NCBI GenBank assembly: GCA_963402885.1
Contig: OY727097.1
Location: forward strand, 25,103,401 to 25,167,400
Origin: Antedon bifida
Taxonomy: Eukaryota; Echinodermata; Crinoidea; Comatulida; Antedonidae
Reading direction: 5' to 3'
DNA: 64,000 nt
In this document: positions 12,090 to 63,720 of the stretch, piece after piece
Layout of the letters: every line of letters starts with the position of its first letter
Numbering within the stretch: the first letter of the stretch is position 1
Position numbers and translations under genes: made by a program
Notes under the pieces: model-generated
What the model saw: only the letters and a program-made list of their open reading frames with translations
Told to the model about the DNA's origin: nothing
Database searches by the model: none

Positions 12090-14140
12090 TGAACAACTAT
12101 TACAACAATTATGACACCTAAGCAGTTAAAGGATTGTACCTTTTCAACTGAATTGTTTGCAATTTTTAGATTAAGGTCGTTAGTATAGATGTTTTCTTTT
12201 TCGATCCGATGAGCATTGATTTAGTTTTGTTTGCATTTATAGTGAGTTTGTTTCTGTTTGCCCAATTGTGTACTATATCTAATACTATATTTAAATTTGT
12301 TTCAATTTCGTCTATGGTTGGTAAACTACATGTCAAGGTTGAATCGTCAGCGTACATGAACAACTTACAGTTTTTAGGAATACAATTTTGTATCACTTGT
12401 GTAAATGATAAAAGCAGTGGTTCCAAAATCGAACGCTGTGGCACACCAATGTTTAGTGGTCGCGTCTTCGATTTTGTGCCACCAATGTTTACATATTGAC
12501 TGCAATCACTTAAATATGATTTAAACCACTCCATTACGGATGGTGACATGCACATAAATTTGAGTTTTTCTAACAGAATTTCATGATTAACTGAGTCAAA
12601 TGCCTTGCTCAGGTCTGTGAAAACAGTACCAGTCATTTTACCCTGTTCCATGGCATGTAAACACTCGTTGGTTTAAAGTCATGTAACGTTGTTTCAGTTG
12701 AATGCAACGGTCAAAACCCTGATTGACAATATGGGATCAGCTTGTTCACATCAGGGTACGAATAGACGGCCGAATGTAACCACCTTTCTAACATTTTTTA
12801 AACAATTGGTAGGATGGAAATCGGTCTATAATTATTAGTGTTACTTTTGTCTCCTCCTTTGTGAATAGGTGTAACAGATGCCTTTTTCCACTCTGTAGTG
12901 TAATGTCCGCATCGTATTGATAGGTTTAGGACATGGGTTAATGACTTTGTCACGTGTGGGTAAGCTAGTTTTAGCATTTTTACACTGACGTCGTCTGGAC
13001 CTGTTGCTTTACCAGCAGAGATTACTAATATTTGAATTTGAATAAATTCTTCTGTGATGTCTGGCAATATACATTTTTCGAGTGAATTTGACGTTTTGGT
13101 TTGATTCAAATATACTACTGGTTGTAGCATTCGCCATACGTTCACCGATTGTTGAGAAATGTTCATTCAATATATCAGCAATGTCGTCAGGATTGTTGAT
13201 AGTAATTCCATTATTGGAAATAATACAATTTTGGGCTGATTTTGTATTGGAATGACCTCTTTTAGTTTCTTCCATAGCATTGACGAATCACCTTTGTTCT
13301 TTCCGATAGTTGATTTAAAATAGTTTTGGTCCGGATTTTATCAGTAACGTACTTATTCCGTAACGTTTTGTAGGTGTTCCAATCTATTTCTAAACCAGAT
13401 TGTTTAGCCTTTTTATGCGTGCAATCACGTTACCGCATAAGTTGCATTATTTCACCATCAAGCCATGGCAGCGATGCGTTTCGGACGCGTTTACATTTGG
13501 TTAGTGCGTGACAGTTAAAAATACCCATAAACAACGAGTGCCACATGAGTTAAGTACATTTTTCCATGGTGCACACATTAGGTCGTATTGGAAGGCATCA
13601 TGGTTTTTATCTTTAAAACGTCTAAAGTGTAATGAACGAACGTTTCCGTTTTTAGGAGTTTTCCAATTTTGGATACCATACGCAACATAATGGTCACTAA
13701 TTAGAGCAGGCAATACACCACTTTCGCTTACAAGTTCAAGATTTGAGCTAAATATTAGATCGATTGTGGTGTGTGTTGATTTAGTGACTCGAGTTGGCTC
13801 ATTAATTAATTGGGTCATTTGGAATTGGTCAAAACATGAGGTTAAAGGATTGGTACTGTCACTAGACATACTAGTTGTACTAGACATGTCAATGTTAAAA
13901 TCACCAAGAACTATGATTTGTTTACATTCGCAGACCGCCTTATCAATATTTTTGTTTAGTGAAAAACTCAGCTGGACTAGAGGACGGTCTGTAAACAGAA
14001 CAAATTAACATTGAGCGTCATTGATTACATTTTACTTCAATCCAAACACATTCGATATCATCTGATTCTAAGTTTGTTCGACGACAGAAGGTCACACTGT
14101 TTCGGATATAAATTGCGATTCCGCCACCGTGCAGTTAATT
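12090..14140 (-). pseudogene. LINE A: CR1/L2-like element, endonuclease plus reverse transcriptase, 3' truncated
   Basis: On the minus strand the apurinic endonuclease comes first: HGGGIAIYIRNSVTF near 14.12 kb, a YRPSSSP motif near 13.99 kb, VLGDFNIDMS at about 13905-13875, and LISDHYVAYG near 13.69 kb. The linker follows. Reverse transcriptase then appears as KATGPDDVSVKMLKLAYP, WKKASVTPIHKGGD and NNYRPISILP (about 13.0-12.8 kb), VFTDLSKAFDSVNHEILLEK near 12.6 kb, GVPQRS near 12.43 kb and the catalytic YADD at 12354-12343. GVPQRS replaces the usual GVPQGS. Several frameshifts break the reading frame. The recognisable protein ends in the VQSFNCLGVII block near 12.11 kb, where LINE B sequence takes over. 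Confidence 0.88.
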
Positions 14141-31300: not shown

Positions 31301-32905
31301 TGTCAAATGATTAAAATACTCAGTGGCACTACTTATACAAATGTGGCACTACTTATTCAAATGTGGCACTATGTATTCAAATGTGGCACTACTTATTTAA
31401 ATGTGGCACTAGGTATTCAAATGTGGCACTACTTATTCAAATGTGGCACTACTTATTCAAATGTGGCACTAATTTAAATGTGGCACTACTTATTCAAATG
31501 TGGCATAACATATTCAAGTGTGGCATAACATATTTAAATGTGGCACTACATATTCAAATGTGGCACTACTTACTCAAATGTGGCACTACTTACTAAAATG
31601 TGGCACTACTTACTAAAATGTGGCACTACTTATTCAAATGTGGCACTACTTATTCAAATGTGGCACTACTTATTCAAATGTGGCACTACTACTTATTCAA
31701 ATGTGGCACTACTACTTATTCAAATGTGGCACTACTACTTATTCAAATGTGGCACTACTACTTATTCAAATGTGGCACTACTTATTCAAATGTGGCACTA
31801 CTTATTCAAATGTGGCACTACTTATTCAAATGTGGCATTACTTATTCAAATGTGACATTACTTATTCAAATGTGGCACTACTTATTCAAATGTGGCACTA
31901 CTTATTCAAATATGGCACTACATATTCAAATATGGCACTACATATTCAAATTTGATGCTACTTATTTAAACGTGGTGCTACTTATTTAAACGTGGTGCTA
32001 CTTATTTAAACGTGGTGCTACTTAATCAAATTTGATGTTACTTATTAAAATGTGGTGCTACTTATTCAAATGTGGCACACACTACTACAGTATTTATACT
32101 ATATATTTATATTAAGTTTAATTTCTTTTATTTAGGTCCATCTACCTTCATATTCAGTATTTTCAAATTTTCCTGAGCTAAATGATATGACAGGACGAGT
32201 GAACTCCTTAGATTTTTCACCAAGAAGTGGGTTTTTGACCCTCGGAAACAACAAAGGTCAAGCACTACTATACAGGTAACTGGACTTTTGTTTGTTCTCA
32301 CCTTTTTGAAAAACCGGACACCCTTTGACTGGCCCAAAATGTCCAGTTACACCTCCAGTCTAAATATCCTACAGCAGAGGTCCTAACTTGGCAAAACAAA
32401 AGATCAGGAAACTTTATTATAGCATAGCCAAACAATAGAGGGTGGTATTTTTAAGAATCTTAGGCATCACACTATAGAGGGTGTTATTTTTAAAATCTTG
32501 GGCATCATATCAGCATTATGGCAGTAAAAACAATGTCAGCCATTTTACAGACATGTAAAAGGTGGAAAATGTGTTAGCAACACATTTTTTACCTTTGGTT
32601 ATCAAACAAGGGCTTATTAGTTGAGAATTTTGTCCATGTCCAAAAGAATCTGGAGAAATTACACTTTTAGTGAGAGACAGGACCCAACATTTTGTGAAAT
32701 TCCTGCTATTGTTAGGAGACTTTTTTATTTATTCTACTGTGTTGATAGGTGGCATTCCATAGACATACTAATACACCCAAGATGCTGTGAATTTAATGTT
32801 TACCATTAACACTATCTACTCTATTTTTTAAAAATGTTCAGCCACTTGAATGCTTATTTTGTTTATTTTATTTTTATTAGGTTGAAGCATTTTTCTGAAT
32901 CTTAA
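25386..32905 (+). CDS. UTP18: U3 snoRNP / SSU processome protein UTP18 (WD repeats)
   Basis: Thirteen exons join in phase: 25386-25694, 26271-26380, 26833-26928, 27168-27241, 27707-27849, 28336-28419, 28886-29057, 29728-29828, 29935-30025, 30482-30605, 31101-31275, 32136-32275 and 32881-32905. The product is 547 residues (human UTP18 is 556). UTP18 belongs to the UTPB subcomplex of the nucleolar processome that handles early 18S pre-rRNA. The first about 244 residues are charged and acidic ([31 protein letters not shown]), with the [13 protein letters not shown] and [11 protein letters not shown] blocks. WD-type blades follow from [20 protein letters not shown] through [18 protein letters not shown] and [20 protein letters not shown] to a C-terminal RLKHFS. 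All introns have GT..AG ends. Introns hold minisatellites and TIR elements. Identification is firm. Confidence 0.95.
26461..26600. mobile_element. Family-1 TIR element (MITE), copy 4 (UTP18 intron 2)
   Basis: TCTACACTATCAAACTTTATG at the left, GATGTCATATCACTACCAT in the core, and a reduced right end TATAGTGTAG. Termini are eroded. Confidence 0.8.
27407..27660. repeat. Minisatellite, 24-25 bp unit, in UTP18 intron 4
   Basis: About ten imperfect copies of GTTAGATAGGTAGCCTGGAG occur, with variants GTGGTAG and GATGCGTTAG. Units vary by a few bases. The array lies between UTP18 exons 4 and 5. Confidence 0.88.
27983..28106. mobile_element. Short TIR element in UTP18 intron 5
   Basis: TAGGACCTGTTCAGACTTGG at the left is inverted at the right as ACTGAGTCTGAACAGGCAC. 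About 124 bp, with a partly palindromic interior (CAACCACAGTTGG). A single copy is seen here. Confidence 0.7.
28215..28327. mobile_element. Family-1 TIR element, copy 5, right-truncated at a splice acceptor
   Basis: It starts TAAAGCTATGTCTACACCAT and carries the family core through ACTACCATATTTGG. It stops 8 bp before the AG of the UTP18 exon-6 acceptor (28334-28335); the right inverted terminus is absent. Confidence 0.8.
31315..32085. repeat. 20-bp minisatellite array in UTP18 intron 11
   Basis: About 38 copies of the unit AATGTGGCACTACTTATTCA. Some units are shifted by an extra ACT triplet (31680-31770), and the right end diverges to AACGTGGTGCTACTTATTTA. Because 20 is not a multiple of 3 and the unit has no stop in any forward frame, all three frames stay open and give spurious proteins of a repeating [17 protein letters not shown] type. 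It is not coding. Confidence 0.95.
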
Positions 32906-57000: not shown

Positions 57001-60000
57001 GAGGACGTGTGGTTTAACAAAGCAATTAACCTGATTCTATCTAATTTTGTGTATTGTAATTTTTTTTTTCTTTATTCTGTTATACAATGTAATACAAGCA
57101 GGTATTGACATTTTGGTGGCACAAGCAGTAATAGGATATTGAATTGAAAAGCTTATTATATAATATACAGTACTGTTTAGGGGAAACTATTTAATGCTAG
57201 CTGTGAATGAGGCTCTCAATATTTGCTGCATAATTCCTGTTGCTAATGTGATATATTGAAATCAGAAATACATAGGGCTTTGGGAAATTATTTATACATG
57301 TGATGTGGAGCTTGTTTGAAATTCAATTTGGTTGGCATACGTAATAGAATGTAATCTCATAAAATATTAAGTCATAAATTGTTAAGATTGAGCAGAAACC
57401 CAGGATAGACAGATTCAGTGTGGGACAAGCTACACGGTTTTCCACTTACCACTCTTTATTTGTTATCATTATTTTGAGGGTTAGGTTTAGTTTAGGACAC
57501 TTGGCTATCCAGTTGCACATGCATTGAAGTACAGTAGAACCTTCATTTACGTACCCTGATTTTACGTTCCCTTAATTTTACGTACGCTTAAAATGACAAA
57601 TTAAGTCATCATTTTCTTACATTGAGGCCGCAATTTAACAACAACAAAGCACAAAGCCATGGCTGTGTGAGGAACTCATGTGCATTCCCCTACAGCAGCG
57701 ACTGTTTTTATTGATAGAAAATACAAGAACATTGATATTTTATTTATAACACTTTATTTAAACTAAATCGCACAGCCTGTATATACTGTACTATTCTAGG
57801 CCTCACAACTTGCTAGACCTGCTAGCCTGGCCTAGATTAGTCTAGGAAGGGCCTAGCTAAGCTAGCGACCACCTGCATGCTGTAGGCAAACATGGCAGCC
57901 TTTTTAGCTACGATCTACGTATTTGGGGGTCAATTTAAGGTCAACCTAGATTTTACGAATCCCTTGTTTTACGTACGCCTTTCGGTCCCGTACCGTACGT
58001 AAAATGGAGGTTCTACTGTACAACCTTTTAAAATAAGGATATGTTGCAGTCAAATCTCTACAACATGGGTGAACTTTAATGGAGTATCGGAATAGTATCT
58101 TCGGTATAGCTAACACAATGTATTGACTCGTTCAGTGAACCATGTCAATATATTGCTAAGGTATACGTGGTATAACTATACTTAAAAACCACAACAAAAA
58201 AAAAACCACAACAAAAAAAAAACCACAATTGGGTGCCATTGGTCTAGGGAATTTATATGGGTGCTGTTGTTAATATTTTGTCTTATTCCACCTTCAGCTT
58301 TGTTCACAATTTATTTTTTAGCACTTTAAAAGAACCGGATGCTTGTACTAAGACGCCTACGCCTACATAAAAAATATGACAATAAATTGTATAGTGAAAT
58401 ATAGCTTGAAATAGCCAGAAATAACTTTAATTTCTTTAATGTACTGACCTAAAATCCAATTAAAGTATCTGAAATTTTCCCCAAATAGAGAGGGAGAAAA
58501 GAAGGGTGGTTGAAGGAGAAGGAGTACTGGAGAGAAAGGGGGAAAGGGGAGGTTGAAAAGAATGGTGGAGGAAGAGGGAAAGGGGAGGGAAAAAGAAGGA
58601 TAGAGGGAGAGGGAGGAGTGGAGAGAGGAAATGGGAGGGAGGAAAAAAGAGTGGAGAGAGAGAAAGGTGGAAAGCAGAGGGAGAAAAGAGGGGTGCAGGG
58701 AGAGGGAAGAGTGGAGAGAGAAAGAGAGGAAATGGGAGGGAGAAAAGAAGAGTGGAGAGAGAGAGTACTGTAGAGAGAAAGGTGGGAAAGGGGAGGGAGA
58801 AAAGAGGGGTGGAGGGAGAGGGAAGAGTGGATGGAAAGGGAAGGGAGAAAAACTTGTAATTTTACGGTTGCTATCATTACGTACAGTATACTTGTATTGA
58901 TAGAGATGGCATAAATGTCCTCAAATTATCATTCCAAAATACTTAAGAAAACAAGACACAACTACAGTATTGTACTTTAAAGTCTAAATTCTAACTTATA
59001 TTTTAAATCTTTTCTTACTTTCCACTAGTATGTCCCTGTTTGTAATCTTTCTTGCAAACACATTTTTAAAGGTTACATTTTCTGGAGTCAGCAAATATTG
59101 TGTTTTCCTACAATTCTTGCCTCTTTAGTTAATTAAAGATACCTTTTATTGTGACTTTTTCCATATTTTATAACATTATTAATTAAATTTTCAAATCTTC
59201 ACAACTTTTGGACATTTATGCTAATTGCCACGGACATGTTTCCATTGAAATTGAAGTTTTTCTTTCTATTTTCTATCAGTCGTCCAATAGGAGACGGTCA
59301 TGATGTATTGGTAACAAGCCCAGCACATGAAGCAAGTAGTAGTCAGGAACCAGTGTAAGTGTTTTTAATTTTATAATAACCCAATAATAAAGAAAAGCAC
59401 TTTAGCATTTAGCAGGCTATAATTTGAATTTACAGCAACTTTGAAGGAAACAGCTCCAATAGTCTATACCAATACTAACCCAATACAACTAGTGAATCAA
59501 CCAACACAATCCACTGATACATAATATACATATAATAATTATAATAATATTCTAGATTTATAAAGCACCTAATGCTGTGAAAGCGCTCTACATATTATTA
59601 CCCTGATCACTTTTGGATGTAACACGTATGGAAACACATTCCCATAATCAGCGCAAAGTTGTGTATTGATCTAACCGGGTACTCAGTTGAACACCTGGGT
59701 GGAACGAGGCAAACGTCAGTTGGATTCGAACCCATGATCTCATGATCAGGAGTCCAACACACTGCACCACACGCAATAGTCAGTTTAGTACCACTAAGTT
59801 TGCACTGCCCGTTTCTTTTACAATGCTGGTTGCATTGTTATAGAATCTTTAGAAATCCATTAAAAAAATATACTTTTGATACTGCATGTGATTTTTTTAA
59901 GCAATGTTTATTCCTCCAACATTTTAAAAATGATCTGCCCTTTTAATTTATTTATTTATTTTATTCAATTTCTGCCATATACAAAACAAAATGTAGAACA

Positions 60001-62007: not shown

Positions 62008-63720
62008 CTATAGTACTTTGAAAACTTTAATGTATTGCCTGTTCGCGACAATAACATGCCTACCGTTAACTGCAACAAATTGTTGTACAATTGGCTCAGA
62101 TGCAATGTTATGATCAAATTCTTTCTCAAGGAATTTCCCATTCTCATTGTACAGTACGACTTTTCTGTCTGTAAGTCCTACGATCATGCCAGAAGGAGCA
62201 ATTGTAAAATCCCGGATGTTTGTCAGATGGAGCGTTCTTTCGCGTTGACCTTGAATAGTGTACTTCTCTATGACACCCCTGTATGACCATGAGTTTACAT
62301 AGATGTGGTCTTTGTGAATTTTAAGAGTTGGATTTGCCTGTTTTGCAATGAATCCTGGAGAAGTAAACAACTCTTGTAGGAGTGTACCGTCAGGATCATA
62401 TTTTACACAGAACCATTCATATTTATCTTCTCTCAATGGTTGCCCGGGCAGTTCATCTGAAATGTTTAATACGCTTCTCTTTCGGTGAAACTTGGCTGAG
62501 AATAGTGACAGTAATTTTTGCCGACACATGGCATATATGTTGCCTTGTGAATCAATTGCGATTGATGAAACGTATTGCTGAGACTTTGACCCGCTGTTGT
62601 CTGTTAAGTAGAAACGAACATTCGTATTTGACTTTATTATCTTTGTTGTGCCGTCTTTCTTTCGTTTTGCGGCAATATCTTCTGTACGATTTTGGCTGAA
62701 TAAGTTTGCATTGCATATGCTTCGATTGCTTAGATGTTTTTTCGGAGTAAAGCCCGCGCCTGAGAAATTTATTGGTAGTATTTTGACTCGCTTGTGAAAC
62801 TTTGTATACGAAATCGCAGTGACAACAAGAAGGAAGTTGCCATTTTGGTTCGTTAATATGGATAAGAGCTTGTTTCCGTAACCAGGTACCTGTTGCATTG
62901 TTCTTATATTGGCAATTTCAACGACACGGAAACGTTCTTCTTGTTCTGTAACTTCAAATAGCATATCTCGTACTTGGGTGATAGTTGGACGGTCGTGATA
63001 GTCTTCCTGCCAGCATAGGAAGCCAAGGTTTTTCAATGTGTCTGGCCAGTTTTGTGGTACTGATAACGGAGGACTTGGAACCAGTCTTTCCCTTGCCAGA
63101 TCAAAGTCTGTTTTACCATCAAAATGGCGTGTTCCTGTCATGATCTCCCAGATGACAATCATCAAAGAATATACGTCTGATTTCTTACTGACAAGCGGTG
63201 GATTGTTCAACCTCTCTGCCGCCATGTATCTCATTGTTCCACCCGCTTGCGAAGGTCTTGTCGTTGCTTCCAACGTGCGTGCAATACCGAAGTCGCAAGC
63301 TTTAAGACCATTCGGAAAGACGAGAAAATTAGCTGGTTTGATGTCTTGATGAATTATATTGTTTCCATGAAGATACTCAATGGCAGCCACTGCATCATTT
63401 GACCAGGAATAATTAAGTGGTGCCGGTATCTGGACTCCACTCTGTAGTCGATCAGATAAACTTCCTGATGGCGTATACTCCATCACTATCATATTCCTGT
63501 GCTCTTTTGTGATGGCACCAATAAATTTTACAATATTCGGGTGGCTTAAGGTGGCATGATGTGATAGCTCTGTTTGACAGAAGAACCGGCTGTCTTTAAC
63601 GGCGACTGTACGTCTCTTGTATGTAGCCCTGAATACGATAGTGTTGTTGGTTTCGGCGATGGAAATTAGATTTTCCAGATGCTGGTACGGAATCTCTTTA
63701 AAGGTAGGATTGGATGCCAT
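62008..63720 (-). CDS. Single-exon TKL-like protein kinase with C-terminal propeller-like domain
   Basis: One uninterrupted frame of 570 codons, ATG at 63720 and TAG at 62008. The N-terminal kinase domain (about 12-260) has VAVK with Lys42, a probable alpha-C Glu51, the catalytic loop HQDIKPAN (124-131), CDFG (142-145), MAAE in the APE position, SDVYS (181-185) and DRP (243-245). The order and the YMAAERL and HPNIVKFIGA blocks suggest the TKL/TAK1-like group. The glycine-rich loop is unusual: IAETNNTIVF has no glycine. HQD replaces HRD. From about 285 to 570 are beta-rich repeats such as SSIAIDSQGNIYAMCRQKLL and FTIAPSGMIVGLTDRKVVLY, like NHL or six-bladed propellers. The absence of introns among intron-rich neighbours suggests a retrocopy or a lineage-specific single-exon family. 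The intact frame argues for function. Substrate and pathway are unknown. Confidence 0.88.
   Translation of the reverse strand: MASNPTFKEIPYQHLENLISIAETNNTIVFRATYKRRTVAVKDSRFFCQTELSHHATLSHPNIVKFIGAITKEHRNMIVMEYTPSGSLSDRLQSGVQIPAPLNYSWSNDAVAAIEYLHGNNIIHQDIKPANFLVFPNGLKACDFGIARTLEATTRPSQAGGTMRYMAAERLNNPPLVSKKSDVYSLMIVIWEIMTGTRHFDGKTDFDLARERLVPSPPLSVPQNWPDTLKNLGFLCWQEDYHDRPTITQVRDMLFEVTEQEERFRVVEIANIRTMQQVPGYGNKLLSILTNQNGNFLLVVTAISYTKFHKRVKILPINFSGAGFTPKKHLSNRSICNANLFSQNRTEDIAAKRKKDGTTKIIKSNTNVRFYLTDNSGSKSQQYVSSIAIDSQGNIYAMCRQKLLSLFSAKFHRKRSVLNISDELPGQPLREDKYEWFCVKYDPDGTLLQELFTSPGFIAKQANPTLKIHKDHIYVNSWSYRGVIEKYTIQGQRERTLHLTNIRDFTIAPSGMIVGLTDRKVVLYNENGKFLEKEFDHNIASEPIVQQFVAVNGRHVIVANRQYIKVFKVL

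Follow-up and report, generated by a model that had tools for sequence, protein, structure and literature searches.

Fusions of a protein kinase with a beta-propeller are known in animals from LRRK1 and LRRK2, NEK8 and NEK9, and VPS15. LRRK1 and LRRK2 form part of the ROCO family and carry a TKL kinase followed by a WD40 propeller. NEK8 and NEK9, in which the kinase is joined to an RCC1 propeller, and VPS15, in which it is joined to WD40, belong to other kinase groups. MAP3K12 (DLK) and MAP3K9 are TKL kinases, as is the pseudokinase ILK, which carries ankyrin repeats, and among bacterial enzymes we take the mycobacterial kinase Mbk to be PknD. In ILK, Asn replaces two P-loop glycines, the side chains of these residues contact ATP and the protein binds ATP (excerpt of PMC4718504). 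ILK has lost the Lys of the catalytic loop and the Asn that binds Mg (excerpt of PMC3014569). In Mbk a kinase is combined with a transmembrane region and with NHL repeats, six of which are recognised (excerpt of PMC1262709).

A gene of Antedon bifida, coded in one uninterrupted piece, looks like an unusual version of this known kinase-propeller design and not a new kind. It lies near the end of a 64,000-nt stretch of genomic DNA, hereafter the window, with the following features:

62008..63720, minus strand: complete coding frame, 570 residues plus stop, coding part without intron (reading frame and shuffle control)
62953..63699, minus strand: TKL-like protein kinase domain, residues 8-256 (Pfam and PDB matches)
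63631..63663, minus strand: glycine-free nucleotide loop SIAETNNTIVF, residues 20-30 (translation and alignment to DLK)
63343..63351, minus strand: catalytic loop His-Gln-Asp, residues 124-126, non-RD (translation and motif census)
63286..63294, minus strand: DFG motif, residues 143-145 (translation and motif census)
62011..62934, minus strand: C-terminal region, residues 263-570, a probable degenerate beta-propeller (tail match to the sister gene L006 and weak family matches)
62533..62583, minus strand: best blade-like stretch, residues 380-396 (Reg_prop at 380-396 and SBBP at 383-396, both below the curated cut-off)
63768, minus strand: final base of the acceptor-like TTTTCTCATTTCAG, the end of a possible 5' UTR intron (sequence signal only)

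A complete 570-codon frame had been reported in the first-pass annotation, and its coordinates, length and openness hold. The strand had to be corrected to minus, where the frame runs from ATG to TAG; the plus-strand reading of the same interval is full of stops. The open run of the real frame is 573 codons. In 200 mononucleotide shuffles of the 64-kb window, all six frames counted, the longest run averaged 126 codons and never exceeded 194, and the frame is not due to chance. An in-frame TAG is located 12 nt upstream of the ATG, so coding begins at that ATG or later. The acceptor-like site ends 47 nt before the ATG. A donor-like GTAAGT is found about 450 nt upstream of that site, at window-equivalent position 64215 (in L001, beyond the window), and together these sites suggest a 5' UTR intron; three further acceptor-like sites occur within 600 nt upstream of the gene. 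The gene is real and belongs to an animal. Domains matched by the frames around it include neurexophilin and NXPE4-C, both of them animal families; other matches are to two pieces of an NDK gene, to reverse transcriptase and endonuclease pieces and, only weakly and below cut-off (1.2e-4), to a BK-channel beta subunit.

Three other parts of the window carry retroelement pieces or repeats. Retroelement pieces with reverse transcriptase and endonuclease-reverse transcriptase matches, presumably LINE-like, are located at 12166-14004 on the minus strand. At 31323-32078 a 20-bp unit is repeated in tandem about 37 times (90% matches), with overlapping open frames in two phases, and a purine/pyrimidine-biased repeat tract at 58363-58925 leaves several frames open.

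The kinase half of the 570-aa protein matches Pfam Pkinase (1.4e-41, residues 25-252) and PK_Tyr_Ser-Thr (1.9e-38). Its best solved relative is MAP3K12/DLK (PDB, 5.7e-32 over residues 8-250); rows 1, 2, 3 and 5 of the PDB matches are MAP3K12 or MAP3K9, row 4 is labelled EGFR, and numerous further kinases follow. The original assignment to a TKL-like kinase is thus upheld, as a class that rests on the nearest solved domains. The details of the active site read earlier from the translation are likewise borne out. K42, D126, N131, D143-F144-G145 and the alpha-F Asp (D182) are kept, as are K128 and, by alignment, Glu51, so that the VAIK Lys, the catalytic Asp and Asn and the DFG of a catalytically equipped kinase are all present. 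The catalytic loop reads HQD, which makes the kinase non-RD. A glycine-rich P-loop is missing: residues 20-30 hold no glycine. In the DLK alignment, Ala22, Thr24 and Thr27 stand opposite its three P-loop glycines, and the tip of the loop is Asn25-Asn26. The protein differs from its nearest solved relative in the P-loop and in having HQD where DLK has HRD, and the tails of DLK and the MLKs are unlike its own. A P-loop devoid of glycine is not unique, because the P-loop glycines are replaced in ILK too, with Asn at two of them, and ILK binds ATP (excerpt of PMC4718504). The 570-aa protein differs from ILK in keeping K128 and N131, both of which ILK has lost.

The earlier suggestion to look for single-exon paralogs with the same fusion was followed up in the animal's own genome (315.6 Mb, 27 contigs; 76 of 118 candidates scored, 69 matches listed), and two further single-frame genes with the kinase-plus-tail layout were found:

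L006:610-2292, minus strand: sister gene of 561 aa (kinase match 1.8e-32)
L018:1354-3126, plus strand: sister gene of 591 aa (kinase match 8.2e-41)

The tails of the 570-aa gene and L006 align over 81 columns (32% identity, blastp E 2e-7, z 9.4, where z compares the local score with 500 shuffles), and those of L006 and L018 over 161 columns (25%, E 1.5e-6, z 9.2). Between the 570-aa gene and L018 the tails have no direct similarity (z 0.2), and L018 is joined to the group through L006. In a whole-protein search the L018 product (P0004) matched the L006 gene over residues 76-543 (27%, E 1.3e-26), a segment that spans the kinase part and runs into the tail. By these alignments the genes are a small kinase/pseudokinase-plus-tail family of at least three members, whose tails are homologous in part. 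Three is a lower bound, because own-genome searches with the tails of L006 and of the 570-aa gene (two of the three tails, L018 being the third) returned the query itself and one match at E above 1, and so missed sister tails already known.

Both sisters have lost catalytic residues, each in its own way, and are therefore predicted to be pseudokinases. In L006 the motifs read HKH and NFS, and a Trp replaces the beta-3 Lys; in L018 they read HKN and, in place of DFG, DAL, while the Lys and two P-loop glycines are kept. Since neither sister has the catalytic Asp or an intact DFG, and since the P-loop glycines and the Arg of HRD are lost from the 570-aa protein itself, all three products might be pseudokinases whose kinase fold and tail serve only as partner-binding scaffolds. 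We give this a little less than an even chance: the retention of K42, Glu51, D126, N131 and DFG in the 570-aa protein would be unexpected if catalytic constraint had been fully released. The explanation we lean towards, at slightly better than an even chance, is that the product is a non-RD TKL-like kinase joined to a C-terminal, probably propeller-shaped interaction domain, and that this one genome holds at least three single-frame genes of the layout, dispersed and strongly diverged, of which the other two are catalytically degraded.

A motif census and a tree were made for 30 loci, the 570-aa gene included, out of the 69 listed matches. In the 29 other kinase loci the catalytic loop is HRD in 16 and another HxD in nine, and four have no Asp. 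Only L026 among the 30 shares HQD, and its count of zero glycines is uninformative because the P-loop is absent from its frame. The 570-aa gene, L006 and L018 fall within a supported group of 18 kinases, without clear placement within it. They are not grouped together in the kinase tree (two changes; one group in 2% of bootstrap trees), and a single clade of the three is not rejected (p-AU 0.26). All three are on long branches, which makes their positions unsure.

The same census contains ten short single-frame TKL-like kinases (L003, L004, L005 and L010-L016, open frames of 281-328 codons), four of which (L003, L004, L005 and L010) have HKD for HRD; L015/L016 and L012/L014 are near-identical pairs by branch length. 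L007 is a further predicted pseudokinase: this single-frame relative reads HKN and NFG, carries an insert rich in Ser and Thr in the region of the P-loop, and has a 320-codon frame without a tail.

The absence of introns from the coding frame could also be explained if the gene had arisen by recent retrocopying from a kinase gene with introns. We consider this highly unlikely. No close source was seen in the own-genome search: the 15 best-scoring matches after the gene itself are 30-36% identical, and the six listed matches above 36% are all short (39-79 residues, 38-56%). L006, L018 and many related kinases are likewise single-frame, and the possible 5' UTR intron, together with the strong divergence of the single-frame sisters, argues against recent retrocopying.

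The nature of the tail is less certain than that of the kinase half. It had been described as rich in NHL or propeller-like repeats; an NHL propeller is not established, since every profile match is sub-threshold. In the profile scan no Pfam family reached its cut-off in the tail of the 570-aa protein, and no NHL match was listed there up to E 10. Across the three tails, propeller families account for three of six weak Pfam matches: SBBP (0.0069) and Reg_prop (0.06) in the 570-aa protein, which overlap on one stretch of 14-17 residues, and NHL (0.15, below cut-off) in L018, where it appeared only when the tail was scanned alone. The L006 tail gave no propeller-family match in Pfam, and none was listed in the full-length Pfam scans of L006 and L018. 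Ten control frames of the window, a small set in which several frames may be non-coding, produced six sub-cut-off matches, none of them to a propeller family. When a three-tail profile was searched against the PDB up to E 10, the only two matches were GID7 (0.49) and TRIM71 (1.7), both of which, we presume, carry propellers. Single-tail PDB searches gave nine rows up to E 10, none significant, of which one is TRIM71 and eight are other proteins.

Because all of these propeller matches are non-significant and an internal repeat went undetected in an HHalign self-comparison (best off-diagonal E 0.038, probability 1.4%), the C-terminal half might be a strand-rich fold other than a propeller. We regard this as rather unlikely. 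The weak Pfam matches lean towards propeller families when set against the small control, and the strand share, by a crude propensity method applied to three proteins, is higher in the tails (0.44, 0.49 and 0.49) than in the kinase halves (0.32, 0.35 and 0.39). A length of about 300 aa would also suit a propeller of six to seven blades. Sequence thus lends weak support to a propeller-like character, and a propeller is probably the better guess.

The first-pass annotation had further suggested that the layout might be convergent with bacterial PknD or novel. Convergence with PknD is not supported: a membrane-like segment is absent, and kinase-propeller fusions are already known in animals. The best 19-residue hydropathy mean in the 570-aa protein is 1.28, at residue 285, and no transmembrane segment is apparent by hydropathy between kinase and tail. 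The lack of a strong hydrophobic segment fits a cytosolic protein, without proving that location. An animal counterpart of PknD, a receptor kinase of the membrane whose sensor is of NHL type, would share the order of kinase followed by possibly NHL-like repeats with the bacterial layout (excerpt of PMC1262709). However, the bacterial kinase possesses, in that same source, both a transmembrane region and NHL repeats (six recognised), and the 570-aa protein has neither by hydropathy and profile search; membership of the PknD type fails on the missing membrane-like segment. The closest solved relatives are, moreover, animal MAP3K kinases, and the tree groups the gene with kinases of its own genome. 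We hold a PknD counterpart to be extremely improbable.

Searches farther afield gave little. A scan of prokaryote contigs (23 stretches matched the pattern) yielded one kinase-only match, in the bacterial MAG L031, with 35% identity in the best segment (residues 58-196), and a viral scan (two stretches matched the pattern) yielded no relative. All PHROGs matches were weak (best E 0.069), and NCBIfam gave 14 families, none of them near its cut-off; 13 of these matches fall in the kinase part.

With respect to the animal fusions, the likeness to LRRK1 and LRRK2 is that a TKL-type kinase is directly followed by a C-terminal propeller, which is only probable in the 570-aa protein. The difference is that the latter has no Roc, COR, LRR, ankyrin or WD40 match. 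Its kinase alignment starts at residue 8, and it is not a ROCO protein because a Roc-COR match before the kinase is absent; no LRRK occurs among the 60 of 2533 PDB matches listed. NEK8, NEK9 and VPS15 resemble it as animal kinase-propeller fusions and differ in that its tail has no RCC1 or WD40 match. Among the matches listed from the kinase, propeller, kinome and non-RD/pseudokinase literature, no description of the fusion was found, and it may already be catalogued in eukaryotic protein collections.

If the preferred explanation of a non-RD kinase with a probable propeller holds, the 570-aa protein would be soluble, and its tail would bind a protein or ligand and thereby position or restrain the kinase. 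The kinase may hold nucleotide through its Asn-containing loop, somewhat as ILK does, and, judging from the glycine-free loop, its transfer activity may be weak or partner-dependent. The predicted-dead sisters L006 and L018 could then act as scaffolds or allosteric partners. A bolder version, which we consider doubtful, would see in these genes a lineage-specific animal signalling family, with one maybe-active kinase bearing an ILK-like Asn loop, at least two dead sisters, a common, new and uncatalogued propeller sensor domain and possible live/dead pairing on a shared ligand. HER2-HER3 and RIPK3-MLKL are kinase-pseudokinase pairs comparable to such pairing.

If true, the finding would extend the kinase-propeller combinations of animals beyond the LRRK, NEK and VPS15 types. 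It would also offer a naturally occurring trio of kinases with a common tail, one candidate-active and two predicted dead. Such a trio could be used to ask whether phosphate can be transferred by a kinase devoid of P-loop glycines and how such a kinase is controlled by a propeller tail.
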